DNA from: a virus
DNA: 49,051 bases
IMG/VR virus record: IMGVR_UViG_3300037502_002472
Location: 1 to 49,051 of that record
Strand: one strand, 5' to 3'
Below the pieces are notes generated by a model. It was given only the letters and a program-made list of their open reading frames with translations. It ran no database searches and was not told the DNA's origin. Position 1 is the first letter of the stretch; the number at the start of each line of letters is the position of its first letter. Both the position numbers and the translations under genes were made by a program. Shown here piece by piece: positions 10,659-19,689 of this stretch.

Positions 10659-11387
10659 ATGTACCCGCTAGGCGATTCCGTCCTCGTTGTCTTGTCCGGT
10701 GGTCAGGACAGCACCACGTGCGCACTCGAGGCCAGGAACAAGTACAAGACCGTGCACGCGATCAGCTTCGACTATGGTCAGCGCCACAGCATCGAGCTGG
10801 AGCAGGCCCGCAAGATCGGACAACTCCTCGGCGTCGAGACGCACCGGGCCGTCAACGTCCAGGGCCTGCTGCGCGGGCGCAGCCCGCTCGTCAGCGACGA
10901 ACCGCTGGAGACCTACACCGACTACCAGTCGATGGACAAGACCATCGGCAACCGTGTCGAGCTCACGTTTGTGCCGCTGCGCAACCCGCTGTTCCTGCTG
11001 GTGGCCGCCAACTACGCCCTTAGCCTGGATTGCTACACCATCATGACCGGTGTTTGCCAGATGGACAACGCCAATTACCCGGACTGCACGGAACGCTTCA
11101 TCGTGACTGCGCAGACGATGATGCGCGAGGCCCTGGGCATGCTGCGCCCGGACTACACCGGTCGTCAGCTCACGATCGAGGCGCCGCTGCTGTATCTGGA
11201 CAAGGCTGCGACGGTGCGTCGTGCCCTGGCTCACGGCGACATCGGGCGACAGGCCCTGGCCCTGAGCCACACCTGCTACGCGGGACAACGCCCGCCGTGC
11301 GGCGAGTGCCATGCCTGCGTGCTCCGGGCCGAAGGGTTCCGCCAAGCGGGGGTGCCCGATCCGCTGGTCGCGCAGTTCGGCGGCTAG
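10659..11387 (+). CDS. queC: 7-cyano-7-deazaguanine (preQ0) synthase QueC
   Basis: A 242-residue QueC of normal length. QueC uses ATP and ammonia to turn 7-carboxy-7-deazaguanine into preQ0. The N-terminal PP-loop SGGQDSTTC (residues 13-21) binds ATP, and the C-terminal zinc site has cysteines at 206, 214, 217 and 220 (C-x7-C-x2-C-x2-C, including CGECHAC). The region ISFDYGQRHSIELEQA is also characteristic. The start at MYPLGDS follows AGAAAGGC; an in-frame extension to 10557 would run through a hairpin. There is no fused amidotransferase or amidinotransferase domain, so this gene alone predicts preQ0 rather than a later derivative. It is separated from queD by 121 bases with another hairpin, so it may be transcribed separately. 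Confidence 0.96.
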   Translation: MYPLGDSVLVVLSGGQDSTTCALEARNKYKTVHAISFDYGQRHSIELEQARKIGQLLGVETHRAVNVQGLLRGRSPLVSDEPLETYTDYQSMDKTIGNRVELTFVPLRNPLFLLVAANYALSLDCYTIMTGVCQMDNANYPDCTERFIVTAQTMMREALGMLRPDYTGRQLTIEAPLLYLDKAATVRRALAHGDIGRQALALSHTCYAGQRPPCGECHACVLRAEGFRQAGVPDPLVAQFGG

Positions 11388-11402
11388 AGTACCGCAGCAA
11401 CC

Positions 11403-11434
11403 GGGGTAAACGACGCTGTGGGCTTGTTTACCCC
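11403..11434 (+). terminator. Hairpin between queC and queD
   Basis: GGGGTAAAC (11403-11411) pairs perfectly with GTTTACCCC (11426-11434), loop of 14. It starts 15 bases after the queC stop. It may end the queC transcript or be a control element for the queD operon. I do not see a preQ1 riboswitch fold. Confidence 0.45.
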
Positions 11435-11449
11435 AGCGGGGGTCACAAC

Positions 11450-11485
11450 CCTACATGCCCGGGTCCGCATCGCCTTGTAGCCCCT
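11450..11485 (+). repeat. 37-base intergenic element, copy B, before queD
   Basis: CCTACATGCCCGGGT, spacer, then GCCTTGTAGCCCCT, matching copy A at 8080-8116. It lies 23 bases before the queD start and could be the promoter or operator of the queD-to-polymerase operon. Confidence 0.5.
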
Positions 11486-11508
11486 GAAATCTGAAAGTAC
11501 GCCCTAAC

Positions 11509-11973
11509 ATGTACACCAGCACCAAGACACTCACCAACTACCCATGCGCCCACCGCCAGCACCGGCACGACGGCGACTGCGCCCTCGTGCACGGCTACAG
11601 CCGGTCATTCGTGTTCGTCTTCGGCAGCGAGACGCTCGACAAGTGCGGGTTCTGCGTTGACTTCGGGGACCTCGATTGGGTCAAGGCCTATCTCACGTAC
11701 ATGTTCGACCACACGCTGCTGCTGATGCCCGACGATCCGCTGCTGGGCAAGTTCACAGAGATCGCCGAGGCGGGTGGGGCAAGCATCCGGCTCATGCCCT
11801 ACGGGGTCGGCATGGAGGGCACAGCGCAGTACATTTGCGAGTACGTCGACGACACGCTCCGTCAGCGCACAAAGGGGCGGGCGTGGGTGATCTCGGTGGA
11901 GGCGCGCGAAAACGACAAGAACTCAGCCATTTACACCAATCCGCAAGCCGGTTTTAAGGGGTGGCTGTCGTGA
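11509..11973 (+). CDS. queD: 6-carboxy-tetrahydropterin synthase-like QueD
   Basis: A 154-residue member of the PTPS/QueD family, which converts dihydroneopterin triphosphate into 6-carboxy-tetrahydropterin in preQ0 synthesis. Visible: His15 in CAHR, the catalytic Cys24 four residues before HGY (CALVHGYSR), DFGDL at 51-55, FDHTLLL near 66-72 and the catalytic-end Glu in SVEARE (131-134). An oddity is HGY at 28-30 where most members have HGH, so one expected zinc histidine is replaced by tyrosine; other histidines nearby (18, 20) might substitute. The gene ends overlapping queE. The start lies 23 bases after a repeated 37-base intergenic element. It could have altered activity but clearly belongs with its neighbours. 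Confidence 0.88.
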   Translation: MYTSTKTLTNYPCAHRQHRHDGDCALVHGYSRSFVFVFGSETLDKCGFCVDFGDLDWVKAYLTYMFDHTLLLMPDDPLLGKFTEIAEAGGASIRLMPYGVGMEGTAQYICEYVDDTLRQRTKGRAWVISVEARENDKNSAIYTNPQAGFKGWLS

Positions 11974-12758
11974 TCACCATCAACGTCGACCGCAACGCAT
12001 CGGTCAAGGATTACCAGCACCTGCCCGAGCGCGCGGTACTGCTCACCAGCCATTTCCACACGATCCAGGGCGAGGGGCCGATGACCGGTCGCCCCGCGCT
12101 GTTCATCCGCACGGCCGGCTGCAATATCGGGCTGAAAGAAGACTGCCCGTGGTGTGACACCCAGTTCGCACTCGACAAGGGCGTCGTGACCCCGTTCGAT
12201 GCACTGCACGACGAGCTCAAGAAGGTGGCGAAGTGGGGCACGTTTCTCGCCGTGATCACAGGTGGCGAGCCGTTGCTTCAGCGCGAACGTCTTCTGCACT
12301 TCATCGACGAACACCATCAGCGACACAATGACGAGGTCGATTTTCAGTTCGAGACGAACGGCCACCGGCTACGTGGGCTGCGCAACAGGCCGCGTGTCCA
12401 TTACGTCATCAGCCCGAAGATCCCCCACGGTCACGCGACATACCTGCCGCTTCGGCAGGAGTGGCTGGCCGAAGACACCAGCCTGAAGTACGTCGTCACC
12501 GCGGACAAGACCTCCCCCTACCACGAGCTGCCCCACAACGACATCGAAACCGCTGTCAACACCGGTGTTGAGGTCTACGTCTCGGGCATGACTGTGTACC
12601 GGCGTGCTGTGCAGCCGGGCGAGGTCGCCAATGTCTGGGACAGGTCGCTCGTCGACCAAGAAGCCACAGCAGCCAACTACCACCGCGCCGCCACCCTGTG
12701 CCGTATGTATGGCTACAGGCTGAGCCTTCAAACACATCTCTTCGGAGCAGTCGAATGA
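11961..12758 (+). CDS. queE: 7-carboxy-7-deazaguanine synthase QueE (radical SAM)
   Basis: A radical SAM enzyme that rearranges 6-carboxy-tetrahydropterin to 7-carboxy-7-deazaguanine. HTIQGEGP (about 33-40) is the QueE N-terminal signature. The iron-sulfur cysteines are 54, 62 and 65 in CNIGLKEDCPWCDT, spaced C-x7-C-x2-C instead of the standard C-x3-C-x2-C; variable first spacing is known in QueE. TGGEPLL (about 100-106) is the SAM-binding GGE motif. The GTG at 11961 gives 265 residues; GTG at 11970 (GTGA overlapping the queD stop, after AAGGGG) is an equally or more likely start, giving 262. It overlaps folE by ATGA, so queD, queE and folE are coupled. Confidence 0.94.
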   Translation: MAVVITINVDRNASVKDYQHLPERAVLLTSHFHTIQGEGPMTGRPALFIRTAGCNIGLKEDCPWCDTQFALDKGVVTPFDALHDELKKVAKWGTFLAVITGGEPLLQRERLLHFIDEHHQRHNDEVDFQFETNGHRLRGLRNRPRVHYVISPKIPHGHATYLPLRQEWLAEDTSLKYVVTADKTSPYHELPHNDIETAVNTGVEVYVSGMTVYRRAVQPGEVANVWDRSLVDQEATAANYHRAATLCRMYGYRLSLQTHLFGAVE

Positions 12759-13483
12759 CCAACAGCAAGACAACCGAGGCGCACGTCCTTGACGCCTTCA
12801 ACGCGTTTTACAGCTATCATTTCAACGCGCTGCGGCACAAGGGTGTGCGTATGCGCGCCAACGACAACATTGTCGCCGGCTTCGACGAAGAGCTGCGGGC
12901 CTATTCGCTGGAGCTCCAGGAGCAGGAGGTTGCGGTGGCCGTGGCGCATCTCATGAAAGCGCTGTTGATCGATGTGCCCAACGACCACAACACCGCGGGC
13001 ACCCCCGCACGGGTGGCCAAGATGTTCGTGCGCGAGGTGATGCGGGGCCGCTACCAGCCGGAACCGGACATCACAGCGTTTCCCAACGATCTGCGGCTGG
13101 ACGAGCTGTACGTCACCGGTCCGATTACCGTGCGCAGCATGTGCTCTCACCACCTCGTGCCCATCGTGGGCCGCGCCTGGATCGGCGTCATCCCTGGCGA
13201 GGACAGTGTGATCGGGTTGTCGAAATTCAACCGGCTCGTCGACTGGGTGTTTGCCAGACCGCAGATTCAGGAAGAGGCGACGATCCAACTTGCCGACATC
13301 ATCGAGTCCAAGGCCAAGCCGAAAGGGCTCGCCGTGCTGGTCAAGGCGACGCACATGTGCATGACGTGGCGCGGCGTGCGGGAGTCGATGGATGCCACGA
13401 TGACTACGTCGGTGCTGCGCGGCGCGCTGCGCGACAAGCCGGAGGCGCGTGCCGAGTTCATGTCCCTGGTGAACCACAAGTGA
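12755..13483 (+). CDS. folE: GTP cyclohydrolase I FolE
   Basis: A 242-residue GTP cyclohydrolase I, the first step toward preQ0: GTP to dihydroneopterin triphosphate. Zinc ligands Cys130 and His133 (CSHHLVP) and Cys202 (HMCM) correspond to the family's ligands, and IGLSKFNRLVDWVFARPQ is the substrate-site signature. Helical NTAGTPARVAKMF at 79-91 is also diagnostic. The N-terminal 60 residues are a family-variable extension. ATG 12755 overlaps the queE stop by four bases and follows CGGAG. It lets the phage raise precursor flux instead of relying on the host folate enzyme. A 6-bp hairpin (13483-13505) follows the stop. Confidence 0.96.
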   Translation: MTNSKTTEAHVLDAFNAFYSYHFNALRHKGVRMRANDNIVAGFDEELRAYSLELQEQEVAVAVAHLMKALLIDVPNDHNTAGTPARVAKMFVREVMRGRYQPEPDITAFPNDLRLDELYVTGPITVRSMCSHHLVPIVGRAWIGVIPGEDSVIGLSKFNRLVDWVFARPQIQEEATIQLADIIESKAKPKGLAVLVKATHMCMTWRGVRESMDATMTTSVLRGALRDKPEARAEFMSLVNHK

Positions 13484-13505
13484 CGCGCGATCCATACTGG
13501 CGCGT
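13483..13505 (+). terminator. Weak hairpin between folE and dpdA
   Basis: ACGCGC and GCGCGT form a 6-bp stem with an 11-base loop, overlapping the folE stop codon. A TAATAC (13527-13532) further on might be a -10 for dpdA. Confidence 0.3.
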
Positions 13506-13550
13506 TCTACTTGGCTGTTGGTCGGTAATACTTCTAACGCTGGTGTTGAT

Positions 13551-14471
13551 ATGACAGAAGACACCGTGAAAATCTACCTCGCCGCCAGGTACAACGGCGG
13601 CCGCGCTGACCCACGGTCCAACAACCCACACCAGCAGGCTGCGGCATCCGAACCGTACCCACATCACCTCGAGTCCTATCACTACGTCGGTCGCGGTCAA
13701 GTGGCGGACGCCGTACGCCACAACAAGCACCAACTGTTCATGGACTCCGGGGCCTTCTCCATGTTCACGCTCGGTATCGGGGTTGACCTGGACGCATACG
13801 GGCGGTACTTGCGCGACGCCTCGGACTACATCGAGGTCGCGTCGAACGTGGACGCCATTGGTGCCGGCAAGGAGCGCATCAGCTATGAGAACCAGAAGTA
13901 CCTCGAGAGCTTGCATTTACCCGTGCCCGTGTGCCCAGTACACCACGCGCGCGATGACGACGCCTGGCTCGTAAGATACATCGACGAGGGCTACCCGTAC
14001 ATCTTCCTCGGCGGCATGGTACCGGAGTCGACCCCATACCTGATCGAGTGGCTAGACAGGATCTGGGACAAGTACCTTGCCCTTCCGGACGGTAGCGCAC
14101 GGGTCAAGGTCCACGGCTTTGGCCTCACAACGTTCGAGCTGATGGAACGCTATCCGTGGTTCTCGGTGGACTCGACATCGTGGGTACAGATCGCGATGTT
14201 CGGCAGCATCATATACCCAGTGAATGGCAAGCCTCGAACGCTCACGTTCTCCTCCAGCAGCCCCGCTGCTAAGGTTGTGGACAAGAGTTACTGGACGTTA
14301 GACGCCCTCACACGCGCAGAGATCGACAAGGTATTGACGGCTGAGGGCTTCGACCCGCAAGACCTGGCTTCGAGCTACGGCTGGCGCGACAAGTGGAACA
14401 TCCGCTTTTATCGGCGCTACATGGAGACGCTGCGCCCGGTGTTCAAGCGCAAACAAGTCACGTTCTTCTGA
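13551..14471 (+). CDS. dpdA: DpdA-like DNA-guanine transglycosylase
   Basis: A 306-residue protein of the TGT/DpdA superfamily, which exchanges guanine in nucleic acid for a 7-deazaguanine base. FMDSGAFS (Asp65) matches the DSGGF-type active-site strand of tRNA-guanine transglycosylase, FLGGM (152-156) resembles the substrate loop, VHGFG (187-191) follows, and FSVDSTSW (Asp207) provides the likely nucleophile. The short form without a tRNA-specific C-terminal zinc domain fits phage DpdA. With queC, queD, queE and folE next to it, the target is inferred to be phage DNA and the donor preQ0. ATG 13551 is preferred over an in-frame TTG at 13518. The ribosome site is weak; a TAATAC 19 bases upstream could give a short leader. 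Confidence 0.88.
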   Translation: MTEDTVKIYLAARYNGGRADPRSNNPHQQAAASEPYPHHLESYHYVGRGQVADAVRHNKHQLFMDSGAFSMFTLGIGVDLDAYGRYLRDASDYIEVASNVDAIGAGKERISYENQKYLESLHLPVPVCPVHHARDDDAWLVRYIDEGYPYIFLGGMVPESTPYLIEWLDRIWDKYLALPDGSARVKVHGFGLTTFELMERYPWFSVDSTSWVQIAMFGSIIYPVNGKPRTLTFSSSSPAAKVVDKSYWTLDALTRAEIDKVLTAEGFDPQDLASSYGWRDKWNIRFYRRYMETLRPVFKRKQVTFF

Positions 14472-14472
14472 C

Positions 14473-15429
14473 ATGCTTGACACTCTCAAGCCCCTCACCA
14501 AGCACACCGGGAGTAGGTTTAACCCGATCCTCGGGTGTGTGCACATCTACACCACCGGCCACGGATCACGGGCACAGGTCGGCAACGGCCGGTACACCGT
14601 CGATGTACCCTGCGAGCTGCCGTCAATGACGGTGGATCTGGATCGCCTCGTGGCCGCCGTCAACGCGTGTCCGGGCACCCCTACCCTGCACGTCGACGGC
14701 GACCGTGTAGCGGTCAAGGCCGGTCGGGTGCGGGCTCGACTGCAGCTCTCCACGACACCGTACCCGGTGGCTACACCAGACCCGACGACGGACCACCCGC
14801 TCGCCGACATCGGCCCGTTGCTGACAACGCTTTACCCGTTCGCGGCCACCGACGCCAGCCGTCCGTGGTCGACGGCGATCTGTCTATCTGGGGATTACGC
14901 CTACGCGACGAACAATGTCTGCGTTGCCCGTGCGCCACTACCCGTCCCCGTGGGGTCACCCGTCAACATTCCGTCGACCGTCGTCGAGGCTGTCACCGAG
15001 CGAGGGCTGATCACCAGTGTCGGCTACACCGACGGTGCTGTGACGTTCTACTACGGAGATGGGTCGTGGGTGCGGACGTTGTTGATCGCGGGCGAATGGC
15101 CCACGCAGGTGATCGACGAGATGCTGGCCGCGGTACCTGACGCCTGGGACACGGCCAACGCAGACCTAGGGCCGTTGATGGTGACGGCGGTAAAGTTGTC
15201 CGATGAGCGGCTACCGTGCGTGGAGTTCGGGGCCGCTACGATGCAGCTTGTCGACGGGTCATTTGTCGTCGATGACCTGACCGGGGTGCCCGACAGCGGC
15301 CGCATCGCGGCGCGCATCGGGGCGCTGGTCTTCGGGATCGCTACACACGTTCAATGGCACACACCGGGGCAGGACCGGCACGCGTTCCGGGCGGGCGACC
15401 TTGTCGGTGTTTTCGGGGGTACCAAATGA
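14473..15429 (+). CDS. Sliding clamp-like protein (DNA polymerase III beta type)
   Basis: A 318-residue protein resembling phage beta-clamp homologues. Matches to the clamp design: MTVDLDRLVAAV near 50-60, DGDRVAVKAGRVRARL (about 76-90) like the clamp's first-domain strand, FAATDASRPW, then the second-domain IPSTVVEAV and the GEWPTQVIDEMLA segment. A clamp would tether the phage polymerase encoded two genes downstream. It starts two bases after the dpdA stop and ends by ATGA overlap with the next gene. The call rests on a remembered family pattern, so it is moderate; no clamp loader is visible in the window, and host loader use is assumed. Confidence 0.6.
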   Translation: MLDTLKPLTKHTGSRFNPILGCVHIYTTGHGSRAQVGNGRYTVDVPCELPSMTVDLDRLVAAVNACPGTPTLHVDGDRVAVKAGRVRARLQLSTTPYPVATPDPTTDHPLADIGPLLTTLYPFAATDASRPWSTAICLSGDYAYATNNVCVARAPLPVPVGSPVNIPSTVVEAVTERGLITSVGYTDGAVTFYYGDGSWVRTLLIAGEWPTQVIDEMLAAVPDAWDTANADLGPLMVTAVKLSDERLPCVEFGAATMQLVDGSFVVDDLTGVPDSGRIAARIGALVFGIATHVQWHTPGQDRHAFRAGDLVGVFGGTK

Positions 15430-15863
15430 AGGGCAAAACGGTCTATCTGTGCGGTCCGATCCACGGCCGCACCGACGCAGAGTGCATCACATGGCGGCAA
15501 ACCTTTCGTGCGATCTGGGACGGCGAGGTGCTGGACCCGATCCGCCGTGACTACCGGGGCCGGGAGTACGAGGACCCGCACGGATTGGTGCACAGCGACC
15601 TCGCCGATGTCCGTGCGGCTGACGCGCTGATCGTGTACTACGATAAGCCGTCAGTGGGCACCTCGATGGAGGTGTTCTACGCCAGCCACATCCTCGGCAA
15701 GCCGGTCGTGCTTGTGAACCGCAGTTACGACATCATTCCGGTCTGGATGCTGTACCACGCGGACCAGATCGTCGGCAGCCTTACGCACGCCAGGGCGGCG
15801 CTCGACGAGTGTCTGTCGGCGGGGTGGAGGCCAACCCTACGTCGAACGTCTGCCGATGCGTGA
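15426..15863 (+). CDS. Nucleoside 2-deoxyribosyltransferase-like protein
   Basis: A 145-residue Rossmann-like protein of the nucleoside 2-deoxyribosyltransferase superfamily. GPIHGR (10-15) is the nucleotide loop, aspartates at 58, 61 and 66 (DLADVRAADALIVYY) line the site, and GTSMEVFYA (78-86) carries the catalytic glutamate (Glu82) in the family motif GT-x2-E. Such enzymes cleave or swap bases on deoxyribonucleosides or their monophosphates. The place between the clamp and polymerase genes, in the same operon as preQ0 synthesis, suggests a role in nucleotide salvage or base exchange. Overlaps by ATGA on the left and by eight bases on the right show tight coupling. Confidence 0.78.
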   Translation: MKGKTVYLCGPIHGRTDAECITWRQTFRAIWDGEVLDPIRRDYRGREYEDPHGLVHSDLADVRAADALIVYYDKPSVGTSMEVFYASHILGKPVVLVNRSYDIIPVWMLYHADQIVGSLTHARAALDECLSAGWRPTLRRTSADA

Positions 15864-17838
15864 TGACTCGGTCGGGTTCTTCTGGGCTGATCTGCATACC
15901 GGGCGGGAGCGGGGCACCTACGCCCGGACCATCCCACCGATACCCGACACCGGGTGGAAACCGCCCGAGACGTTTCCGCGGCTGGCGGACTGCCCCATCC
16001 TCGGGCTGGACGTCGAGACGCGCGACACGGCGCTGACAACGAAAGGTCCAGGGTTCCGCCGCGAGGGCGACGAGCACGCGCACATCGTGGGCATCTCGGT
16101 CGCCACCGTGGACGGGCACTCGTGGTACTTCCCGATGCGCCATGAGATGGCGCCCGAGCAGAACCTGCCCGTGGGCACTGTGCTACGGTGGGCGCGCGAC
16201 AACTTGTGCACCGAGGGACAGGTCAAGGTCGGCGCGAACCTCGCTTACGACGTCGACGCCCTGTGGAGCGACGGGGTGCCCGTCACCGGTCCGTTTGTCG
16301 ACATCCAGTGGGCGGAGGCGTTGCTCGACGAGTACCGCCGCACGTACAACCTCGAGTCGCTGGCGCAGTCGTACCTCGGACAGTCGAAAGTCAAGGACGA
16401 GCTGCAGGACTGGGCTGTGAGGGCCTACGGCGACGAGAACTACCGCCAGAACATCTACCGGTGTCCGCCGTGCCTCGTTGGCCCTTACGCTGAGGCGGAT
16501 GCGCACCTACCGCTGCGGATCTTCGAGCTCCAGCGCGAGCTGCTACGCGCCCAGGAGTTGCTGCCGCTGTTTGAGAAAGTGGAGATGCCACTGCTGCCCC
16601 AGCTTGTGCGTATGCGTCACCGTGGGGTGCGTGTGGACATCGACCACGCCAAGAGGCTCGACGATCGGCTTAGCCAGGAGATCGAGCGCCTCGACCGTGA
16701 ACTGGAGAGCCTGGCTGGGCATCGTGTTGACGTCAACGTCAAGACCGACCTGCAACGAATTTTTGATAGGGCCGGCATCGAGTACCCACGTACCGCCACC
16801 GGACAGCCGTCGTTCGCGAAAGACTTTCTGGACTTCTGCGACCACCCGGTCGCCGCGCTGGTCGTCGACCGCCGCAAGATGGCCAAGTACCGGGACACGT
16901 TCGTGCGTGGGTACGTGCTAGACCTTCACGTCAACGGGCGACTGCACGCACTCTTTCACGCGCTGCGTGGGGACGAGAACGGGACGGTCAGCGGGCGCTT
17001 CTCGTCGTCACTGCCGAACCTGCAGAACATCCCCGCACGTGATCCGTTGTGGGGTCCCCTGCTGCGGGCGCTGTTCGTGGCCGAGTATGGCGAGCTGTGG
17101 TTGCGTCACGACTGGTCGCAGATCGAGTATCGATTCCTCGCCCATTACGCCCGTGGACCCAGCGGTGACACGGTGCGCCGGATGTACCGCGACGACCCGT
17201 CGACGGACTTTCACACGATGACGCAGTCGCTGATCCGGGACGTTGCCGGCGTGACCCTGGACCGTAAGCCCGTGAAGAACATCAACTTCGGGTTGTGCTA
17301 CGGCATGGGCAAGGCCAAGCTCTCCCACGACCTGGGGTTGGATCTGGCGGCTGGCGAAGAGCTGTTTGCGGCCTACCACACCGGGGTGCCGTTCGTGGCG
17401 GCCACCTACGAGGCGGCGCAGCAAAAGGCGGCTGCCCGCGGGTACATCGTCACGACGTGTGGCCGCCGCGCACGGTTCCCACTGTTCGAGCCAGCGTTCG
17501 GTGAGCAAAGGCCGGCGCTGTCGGAAGCAGAGGCGCGCGATAAGTACGGGCGTGTGCGACGGGCGCTCACGCACAAGGCGCTCAACAGGCTACTACAAGG
17601 GTCGGCTGCGGACTTGATGAAGGTGGCGATGGTGACAATGGACGAGGCCGGGGTCGAGCGATTACTGGGTCCTATGCTACTGACGTGCCACGATGAGACC
17701 GGGCATAGTATGCCGGACACCCCCGAAGGTCGTGAAGGGGCCGCCGAAGTCAAGAGGTGCATGGAAACGTGTATGACCTTGCGGGTCCCCGTGATCGCCG
17801 AGCAGTCGATCGGTCGCAATTGGGGCGAGTGCAAATGA
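15856..17838 (+). CDS. Family A DNA polymerase with 3'-5' exonuclease
   Basis: A 660-residue phage replicative polymerase. Exonuclease motifs: LDVETRD (Asp52, Glu54), then GANLAYDVD and YNLESLAQSYL. Polymerase motifs: SGRFSSSLPNLQNIP, motif A DWSQIEYR (about 418-425), motif B RKPVKNINFGLCYGMG (about 470-485) and motif C CHDE (about 612-615). The motif B aromatic residue is Phe (NFG), as in Escherichia coli Pol I rather than the Tyr of T7. The length and absence of a 5' nuclease fit phage Pol A. It is coupled by overlaps to the genes on both sides. It would copy, and must read through, 7-deazaguanine-bearing template if the modification predicted here is made. Confidence 0.96.
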   Translation: MRDDSVGFFWADLHTGRERGTYARTIPPIPDTGWKPPETFPRLADCPILGLDVETRDTALTTKGPGFRREGDEHAHIVGISVATVDGHSWYFPMRHEMAPEQNLPVGTVLRWARDNLCTEGQVKVGANLAYDVDALWSDGVPVTGPFVDIQWAEALLDEYRRTYNLESLAQSYLGQSKVKDELQDWAVRAYGDENYRQNIYRCPPCLVGPYAEADAHLPLRIFELQRELLRAQELLPLFEKVEMPLLPQLVRMRHRGVRVDIDHAKRLDDRLSQEIERLDRELESLAGHRVDVNVKTDLQRIFDRAGIEYPRTATGQPSFAKDFLDFCDHPVAALVVDRRKMAKYRDTFVRGYVLDLHVNGRLHALFHALRGDENGTVSGRFSSSLPNLQNIPARDPLWGPLLRALFVAEYGELWLRHDWSQIEYRFLAHYARGPSGDTVRRMYRDDPSTDFHTMTQSLIRDVAGVTLDRKPVKNINFGLCYGMGKAKLSHDLGLDLAAGEELFAAYHTGVPFVAATYEAAQQKAAARGYIVTTCGRRARFPLFEPAFGEQRPALSEAEARDKYGRVRRALTHKALNRLLQGSAADLMKVAMVTMDEAGVERLLGPMLLTCHDETGHSMPDTPEGREGAAEVKRCMETCMTLRVPVIAEQSIGRNWGECK

Positions 17839-18650: not shown

Positions 18651-18887
18651 ATGAGCGTGCACAAATTTCCGCCACCCCAACCACGTGCCGATACCGCGCC
18701 GCCGGCCGTCGCACCGAAGCGAGACACGCCGCGCCCTACGTTCCTCGGTGGGTCGCGTACCCGTTACCGTCACCACTATGCCCACGACAATTCCGACTGG
18801 GGCGGAGTGGTGATCGCGGCCGTCGTTGTCGGCGCGTTTGTCGCGCTGCTGGTGATCGGGCTGCACATGACGGGTGCGGCGCCGTGA
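18651..18887 (+). CDS. Small single-span membrane protein
   Basis: A 78-residue protein whose last 28 residues form one transmembrane helix (WGGVVIAAVVVGAFVALLVIG). The first 50 residues are Pro/Arg/His-rich and probably cytoplasmic. It follows CTGGAGCCACGA. Its stop overlaps the start of another small membrane protein by GTGA, and further membrane or envelope-directed products follow, suggesting a superinfection-exclusion or envelope-modifying set. No family is recognised. Confidence 0.6.
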   Translation: MSVHKFPPPQPRADTAPPAVAPKRDTPRPTFLGGSRTRYRHHYAHDNSDWGGVVIAAVVVGAFVALLVIGLHMTGAAP

Positions 18888-19024
18888 AGCGCCGACCACG
18901 GCGCGTGCCAGACTCGGGTTGGGTGCACGCCGCGCTGCGCCTTGCGGTGGCGCTGGCGGCGCTGTTGGGCGTGATGTGGTTTGTCGGACCGGAGGCGCTG
19001 CCTCCGGATTGGGGATGGAGATGA
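18884..19024 (+). CDS. Tiny membrane protein
   Basis: A 46-residue protein starting with GTG (GTGA overlap with the previous stop) and ending in an ATGA overlap with the next gene, so it is framed on both sides as a coupled gene despite its size. A basic N-terminus (KRRPRRVPDSGW) precedes a membrane helix (LRLAVALAALLGVMWFVG). Not recognised. It is too short for ordinary gene-calling thresholds. Confidence 0.5.
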   Translation: MKRRPRRVPDSGWVHAALRLAVALAALLGVMWFVGPEALPPDWGWR

Positions 19025-19689
19025 TTGCCATCGCACTGGCCGCCAGCGTCGCGGCCTGTTCCTGGGACCGCCCAGGCGCGAACCCGTTCACCGGCGACGT
19101 GGTCGCGGCCGTCGACCGCTACCAGGACATCCCCGTCGCCGTGCGCGAGGCGCTGAAGGCCCGCATGGCAGCGCGCCGGTACGACGAGATGGCCACGATC
19201 ACGCGCGACGAGATCCGGGGTGAACACCGGTACGAGGGGCTGCGCGACATGCACTTCGGTGGCGGCACTGTCTGCCGCACCGTCACCCGCGATCGGTGGC
19301 CGTCCGCCGCCATCGAGCGCGGGCTCGTGTACTGCGAGCAAGGGCACTGCCTGATCGTGCCCACGGTGTGCCGCAACGTCTCCCGCGTGACGCGCGTGCC
19401 ACCGGCTCCGCCGCCCGATGTGCCGGTGGGCCGGGTCATCGAGATTCCCGGTGGGACGGGTGGCATAAGCTGGGCGCAAACACTCGACCTCGACGATCCG
19501 ACGCGCGACCCGGTCGGACGCTTGACGTACCCGCCGAGTATAGACTGGACCCCGGATCCGCTGCCGGCTGAACCGACACAGCTCGCGCGAGCCGTCGAGC
19601 CGATCCCGGAGCCCAGCACCTGGGCAATGATGGTGCTCGGTGTTTTGTTGGTGGCGGTCGCCGCCAGGAGAAGGTGGAGCAAAGCATGA
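19021..19689 (+). CDS. Lipoprotein-like protein with PEP-CTERM sorting tail
   Basis: A 222-residue protein with two export signals. The N-terminus IAIALAASVAAC is a short signal with a lipobox-like SVAAC, though it lacks the usual positive n-region. The C-terminus is a textbook PEP-CTERM tail: PEPSTWAMM (196-204), a hydrophobic span (VLGVLLVAVAA) and a basic end (RRRWSKA). In bacteria this tail is processed by exosortase in Gram-negative, biofilm-forming species. The body has several cysteines (GTVCRTV, VYCEQGHC, TVCRNV) and a Pro-rich linker. A phage gene using the host exosortase is unusual; a surface role such as blocking superinfection is inferred. Neighbours are small membrane proteins in one coupled operon. 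Confidence 0.75.
   Translation: MIAIALAASVAACSWDRPGANPFTGDVVAAVDRYQDIPVAVREALKARMAARRYDEMATITRDEIRGEHRYEGLRDMHFGGGTVCRTVTRDRWPSAAIERGLVYCEQGHCLIVPTVCRNVSRVTRVPPAPPPDVPVGRVIEIPGGTGGISWAQTLDLDDPTRDPVGRLTYPPSIDWTPDPLPAEPTQLARAVEPIPEPSTWAMMVLGVLLVAVAARRRWSKA

Follow-up and report, generated by a model that had tools for sequence, protein, structure and literature searches.

Among phages with 7-deazaguanines in their DNA, the group-2 systems of Escherichia phage CAjan and Mycobacterium phage Rosebush encode FolE, QueD, QueE, QueC and the DNA-guanine transglycosylase DpdA, with neither an amidotransferase nor QueF. With this gene set, Hutinet et al. (2019) reported dPreQ0, the DNA form of the base preQ0, at ~32% of G in CAjan and ~28% in Rosebush, and deletion of dpdA abolishes dPreQ0 in CAjan (PMC6884629). 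In Enterobacteria phage 9g, the que genes, folE, dpdA, clamp and polymerase genes lie in a single run, and residue His196 of its DpdA separates DpdA from DpdA2 (PMC6884629). In phages with 2-aminoadenine (Z) genomes, DmtZ is a dAMP hydrolase and a deoxyribose-5-phosphate transferase to the Z base (PMC12884076). Here we analyzed the IMG/VR virus record IMGVR_UViG_3300037502_002472, the whole of which (49,051 bp, GC 65%) is referred to as the window. It carries queC, queD, queE, folE and dpdA at 10659–14471 on the + strand, followed by an unbroken run of a clamp gene, a PF05014 gene and a family A DNA polymerase gene (PolA). The core locus is very probably a phage operon for 7-deazaguanine DNA modification like those of CAjan and Rosebush, an ordinary member of a known group, and in this respect brings a further uncultivated phage into a well-described set. 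What is new here is the PF05014 gene, a recurrent accessory in an otherwise known operon whose product resembles nucleoside 2-deoxyribosyltransferases (NDTs) and has about an even chance of being linked to DpdA as an accessory.

The 145-aa product of the gene at 15426–15863, which the sequence-only reading had missed, is assigned to the PF05014 NDT superfamily by its score, predicted fold and catalytic Tyr/Asp/Glu residues. The PF05014 score is 32.1 bits (gathering cut-off 28.8), its profile matches the structures of BlsM, MilB, Rcl/DNPH1 and NDT, and its AlphaFold2 (AF2) model (pLDDT 92) matches NDT (6evs), DNPH1 and MilB in Foldseek. All of 74 relatives keep Y7, D58, G78, T79, E82 and W107. 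The protein resembles the nucleoside 5'-phosphate N-glycosidases DNPH1/Rcl, MilB and BlsM as well as the NDTs in fold (Foldseek probability 1.0), profile and PSxGTxxE motif, but is only ~20% identical to them. Among 50,697 phage records, NDT-like matches were found in Aminobacter phage Erebus, Edwardsiella phage ZHS, Rhizobium phage RHph_X3_2 and Moorella phage MTATph1, plus two weaker ones. As in the window, the gene lies inside the que/dpdA/clamp/pol run in Erebus, ZHS and RHph_X3_2, MTATph1 not being among these; unlike the clamp–pol position of the window, it is found at queD–folE, dpdA–clamp and queE–queC, respectively. In a tree built from few columns, the Erebus-type genes form a starred group of their own, separate from those of the window and of ZHS, which makes more than one recruitment of the NDT-like gene into preQ0 operons likely.

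The NDT-like gene is repeatedly found next to DpdA in viral genomes. Locus counts from the IMG/VR searches, for both the DpdA and the NDT-like sets, are among the matches listed. The NDT-like gene is present in 10 of 81 DpdA loci (the window and 80 IMG/VR loci collected by DpdA alignment), always within the operon, at queC–queD, queD–folE, dpdA–clamp or clamp–pol; RHph_X3_2 adds queE–queC, making five insertion positions. The reverse search with the NDT-like family profile returned 80 viral loci, 56 of them with a DpdA-family gene in reach (44 within 300 bp), and a replicate search with the Erebus-type clade placed a DpdA-family gene at 40 of 65 viral loci. When both searches are pooled, a DpdA-family gene accompanies the NDT-like gene at 96/145 viral loci, within 300 bp at 69 and on the same strand in 96/96. 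No que gene is in reach at 64 of these 96 loci. Where que genes are lacking, the neighbours are short and carry DNGAF, PDV, HxLR and SxDSTN; 21 of the 26 neighbours tested match PHROG 887. Chromosomal NDT-like relatives in PVC-group bacteria served as a cellular control, with DpdA at 1/80; they adjoin genes such as SHMT, RpiB and RhaA. The only chromosomal relative with an adjacent DpdA-like gene, L268 (Cesiribacteraceae), has a DNA methylase gene nearby and is possibly a prophage.

Several observations weigh against a functional link with DpdA. Most DpdA phages are without the NDT-like gene, 49/145 viral NDT-like loci have no DpdA in reach, and at 24 viral loci lacking a nearby DpdA, a search of the whole record gave no match to PHROG 887. 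The seeds of the NDT-like profile were themselves taken from DpdA loci. The cellular control is nearly one clade after dereplication, so we attach no p-value to it; at 60% identity, dereplication leaves a viral count of 27/46 and the contrast with the cellular set is not significant (Fisher p 0.57). A set anchored on PolA also shows no enrichment of NDT with DpdA (3/48 vs 1/11). The sole DpdA-negative NDT case in that set (L394) is a more divergent NDT-type protein without the PSxGTxME motif. The full records of MTATph1 and of five NDT-like contigs with lower scores also gave no match to PHROG 887, and five positive controls matched. A control query with the generic NDT of Acutalibacter phage Fontainebleau returned 6 loci with DpdA at none, too few to weigh.

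With confidence evenly divided for and against, we propose a widespread functional partnership between the NDT/DNPH1-like enzyme and the DNA-guanine transglycosylases of phages. The enzyme would have entered preQ0-DpdA operons on more than one occasion and would handle exchanged bases or nucleotides, as a 7-deazaguanine counterpart of DmtZ. The analysis shows its fold family, conserved catalytic residues and recurrent genetic linkage to DpdA, while its substrate and direction are our inference; a literature search of partial coverage found no paper tying this family to DpdA. The enzyme would act on nucleoside 5'-monophosphates, through hydrolysis or deoxyribose-5-phosphate transfer. It could return the guanine ejected by DpdA to the dGMP pool, or clear 7-deazaguanine nucleotides freed from turned-over DNA. 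It is also possible that it supplies the base in que-less DpdA phages. A role around the DpdA exchange is favoured because DpdA is the sole feature common to que-bearing and que-less loci. At five loci (L441, L445, L451, L460 and L176) a divergent DpdA accompanies the NDT-like gene and QueE, mostly with QueD as well; QueC and FolE were not seen there, so the inserted base could be 7-carboxy-7-deazaguanine. Members of one phage group (L013, which is ZHS, L130, L136 and L137) hold QueC, FolE, DpdA and the NDT-like gene, with QueD and QueE not detected in the locus.

Ordinary phage nucleotide metabolism is a possible but more doubtful explanation, in which the NDT-like gene would belong to pool salvage within the replication module and be unrelated to DpdA. 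The position of the window gene between clamp and polymerase, the occurrence of other PF05014 genes in phages without DpdA and the result of the PolA-anchored set are all consistent with salvage. However, the 69/145 viral family members at ≤300 bp from a DpdA-family gene are mostly at loci with none of the que, clamp and pol genes in sight, and in Erebus, RHph_X3_2, L098, L436 and others the gene lies within the preQ0 gene run. It is quite unlikely that the enzyme runs forward like DmtZ, moving deoxyribose-5-phosphate from a dNMP to preQ0 and yielding dPreQ0-MP for incorporation by the polymerase, a route parallel to DpdA. DmtZ does so for the Z base, its catalytic pair Tyr6/Glu103 and closing Trp124 align with Y7, E82 and W107 of the window protein, and the NDT-like gene overlaps the polymerase gene in the window. 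Against this, DpdA, which usually lies close by, would be redundant, while the similarity to DmtZ is at fold level only (11 bits) and DmtZ Pro57 is not clearly matched. Pro38 of the window protein was tried as the counterpart of Pro57 and dropped after alignment. With Pro57 unmatched and no PF00709 on the contig, the protein is not counted as a DmtZ.

The modification genes and the replication genes form one run in the window. Gene families were assigned by Pfam, NCBIfam and PHROGs, and all three agree on the families:

10659–11387, + strand: queC, 7-cyano-7-deazaguanine synthase with no Gat fusion (PF06508, 4.3e-56; TIGR00364 above cut-off).
11509–11973, + strand: queD-like 6-carboxytetrahydropterin synthase (PF01242, 1.2e-18; PHROG 2389, 8e-33; alignment).
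11970–12758, + strand: queE (PF04055 radical SAM, 3e-8; PHROG 2076, 7e-38; TIGR03963 at 60 bits, under cut-off).
12755–13483, + strand: folE, GTP cyclohydrolase I (PF01227, 2.6e-45; PHROG 2197).
13551–14471, + strand: dpdA, DNA-guanine transglycosylase (PHROG 887; conserved residues; AF2 model).
14473–15429, + strand: clamp, DNA polymerase processivity factor (PHROG 947, 6.5e-35).
15426–15863, + strand: NDT/DNPH1-like PF05014 enzyme, proposed DpdA accessory (PF05014, 1.4e-7, above cut-off; AF2 and Foldseek; recurs beside DpdA).
15856–17838, + strand: PolA, family A DNA polymerase with a 3'-5' exonuclease domain (PF00476, 1.1e-64; PF01612).

A gene matching PHROG 2165 continues the operon after PolA. 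The gap between queC and queD is 121 bp; queE likely starts at GTG 11970 and folE at ATG 12755, with 4-bp overlaps at queD/queE and queE/folE, and ATG 13551 is the more likely start of dpdA (306 aa). The clamp and PF05014 genes overlap by 4 bp, and the PF05014 and polymerase genes by 8 bp. Scans for promoters and terminators gave no signal above chance. The sequence-only reading had grouped the five genes and proposed that modification and polymerase genes are co-expressed. All five were found at 10659–14471 on the + strand by Pfam, NCBIfam and PHROG, and co-expression gains support from the overlaps and from the linkage of que, dpdA, clamp and pol conserved in almost all relatives. These genes lie together in nearly all of the 80 IMG/VR DpdA loci, most commonly in the order queE, queC, queD, folE, dpdA, clamp, pol, and the isolates BcepGomr, Bhz54, ART, Me-ZS1, Erebus and 9g share the linkage. 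The overlaps tie the modification operon to clamp and PolA and thereby put modification alongside replication. The novelty claimed for the locus was overstated, because the gene set is the known group-2 set; the gene order was likewise already known from 9g and others.

The transglycosylase is a genuine phage DpdA, as had been proposed from its DSGAFS and SVDSTSW strands. Both motifs are present, the protein matches PHROG 887 at 9e-53 with no Pfam match, and it is 36% identical to 9g DpdA. It scores 21.5 bits against the bacterial DpdA equivalog NF041059 (cut-off 200) and is, judged by sequence, of the phage rather than the bacterial type. D65, D207, D101 and H188 are conserved in 60 DpdA homologues; the invariant D65 and D207 would be, by motif, the general base and nucleophile positions of tRNA-guanine transglycosylase (TGT). 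His196 of 9g is the histidine of HGFG and is kept in the window as H188; the protein is therefore DpdA, not DpdA2. The AF2 model (mean pLDDT 94) has the TGT fold, with TGT structures (1q65, 4fr1) as best PDB matches ahead of other TIM barrels, and in a profile search of the PDB the top match, marginal at E 0.1, is 7ui4, a DNA-guanine transglycosylase. The preQ0 genes also serve queuosine (Q) synthesis, and DpdA is related to TGT, which would fit a function of the que genes and dpdA in host tRNA queuosine rather than in phage DNA. Such a function is very improbable, given a DpdA that falls in the phage family PHROG 887, resembles that of 9g and keeps His196, and a gene order that matches phages with proven modified DNA.

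The genes for a complete preQ0 pathway, FolE, QueD, QueE and QueC, are encoded together by the evidence of Pfam, PHROG and NCBIfam, in agreement with the sequence-only reading. The metal and cluster sites it had described are seen in the translations: QueC has SGGQDS and the four C-terminal Cys of its zinc site, FolE has the zinc ligands MCSHH and MCMTW, and QueE has the radical SAM motif CxxxxxxxCxxC. QueC (TIGR00364, 174.6 bits, cut-off 150.3) and FolE match their families strongly. For QueE and QueD the PHROG matches are clear, but the scores fall under the cut-offs of the NCBIfam equivalogs, which is normal for phage forms that have diverged; QueD scores 33.4 bits against TIGR03367 (cut-off 89) and is recognized by both PF01242 and PHROG 2389. 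A residue that counts against the core reading is Y30 of QueD, which in the alignment replaces the third zinc His of HGH, with C24, H15 and H28 present. HGY is found in the QueD of the window, L014, L015, L017, L018 and L179, in contrast to HGH in 9g and Bhz54, so that one canonical zinc His is missing; the first His is also absent in some of the QueDs with HGY.

The best prediction for the DNA of the window phage, judged from its genes, is dPreQ0 at part of the guanines, because QueC has no Gat domain and searches of the contig, which may be incomplete, gave no match to QueF, ArcS (DUF5591), GATase_6 or YhhQ. These searches bear out the earlier remark that no QueF or amidotransferase is seen. 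FolE, QueD, QueE and QueC would convert GTP to preQ0, a pathway known from the literature and applied here by homology and gene order; DpdA would swap guanine in phage DNA for preQ0, so that a fraction of the guanines becomes dPreQ0, and the modified DNA would resist many restriction enzymes. A partial level agrees with those measured in CAjan and Rosebush. It tells against the prediction that it is drawn from genes on a possibly incomplete contig, no terminal repeats being found in the 49,051-bp record. An unlikely alternative is that dADG, dPreQ1 or dG+ is made through an enzyme of the host or a phage gene that escaped recognition: dADG is possible in phages with dpdA alone and several genes of the window belong to no known family, but QueF, ArcS and GATase have no match on the contig, QueC is not Gat-fused, and phages with the same gene set were measured as dPreQ0. 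In the relatives, where a search for QueF had been suggested, PF14489 gave short matches in 47/50, most of them under the cut-off; these are apparently FolE genes matched through the shared tunnelling fold, and none was accepted as QueF.

The chance that the window phage is a 2-aminoadenine phage is close to nil. The top NCBIfam match of PolA (15856–17838) is DpoZ_1 (NF038380) at 332.7 bits, short of the cut-off of 500; PurZ (PF00709) was not found on the contig, and the nearest polymerases belong to other preQ0/DpdA phages, e.g., Me-ZS1. The Z-genome hypothesis, with a sub-cut-off DpoZ score and no PurZ, was dropped as refuted on present evidence. Polymerases related to PolA of the window are common in other phages.

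A gene at 18874–19689 (+ strand) encodes a PEP-CTERM protein of the MHFG family (NCBIfam NF038119, 242 bits, cut-off 100) with the C-terminal sequence EPSTWAMMVLGVLLVAVAARRR, hinting by its sequence at an exosortase-bearing Gram-negative host.

Compared with the described systems, the locus differs from CAjan and Rosebush in that the window phage is uncultivated, in its DpdA, which is of the 9g type with <50% identity to isolates, and in the NDT-like gene within its operon. It resembles 9g in the single run of genes and the conserved His196. Unlike 9g, which has a Gat-QueC and makes dG+, the window has a stand-alone QueC, and queE is placed after queD. For the NDT-like accessory, DmtZ of Gordonia phage Ghobes and Arthrobacter phage Wayne is the nearest precedent by analogy, being likewise a small enzyme of the NDT superfamily encoded by a phage with modified DNA (PMC12884076). 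However, DmtZ serves 2-aminoadenine, from dAMP to Z, whereas the window is without PurZ, and the sequence similarity is marginal. If the NDT-like enzyme is a partner of DpdA, it bears on how DpdA phages that lack the preQ0 genes acquire or process the base, which would concern the que-less majority of two-gene viral loci (64/96), and nucleotide-pool accessories of the DmtZ type would be a shared theme of DNA hypermodification rather than peculiar to 2-aminoadenine phages.

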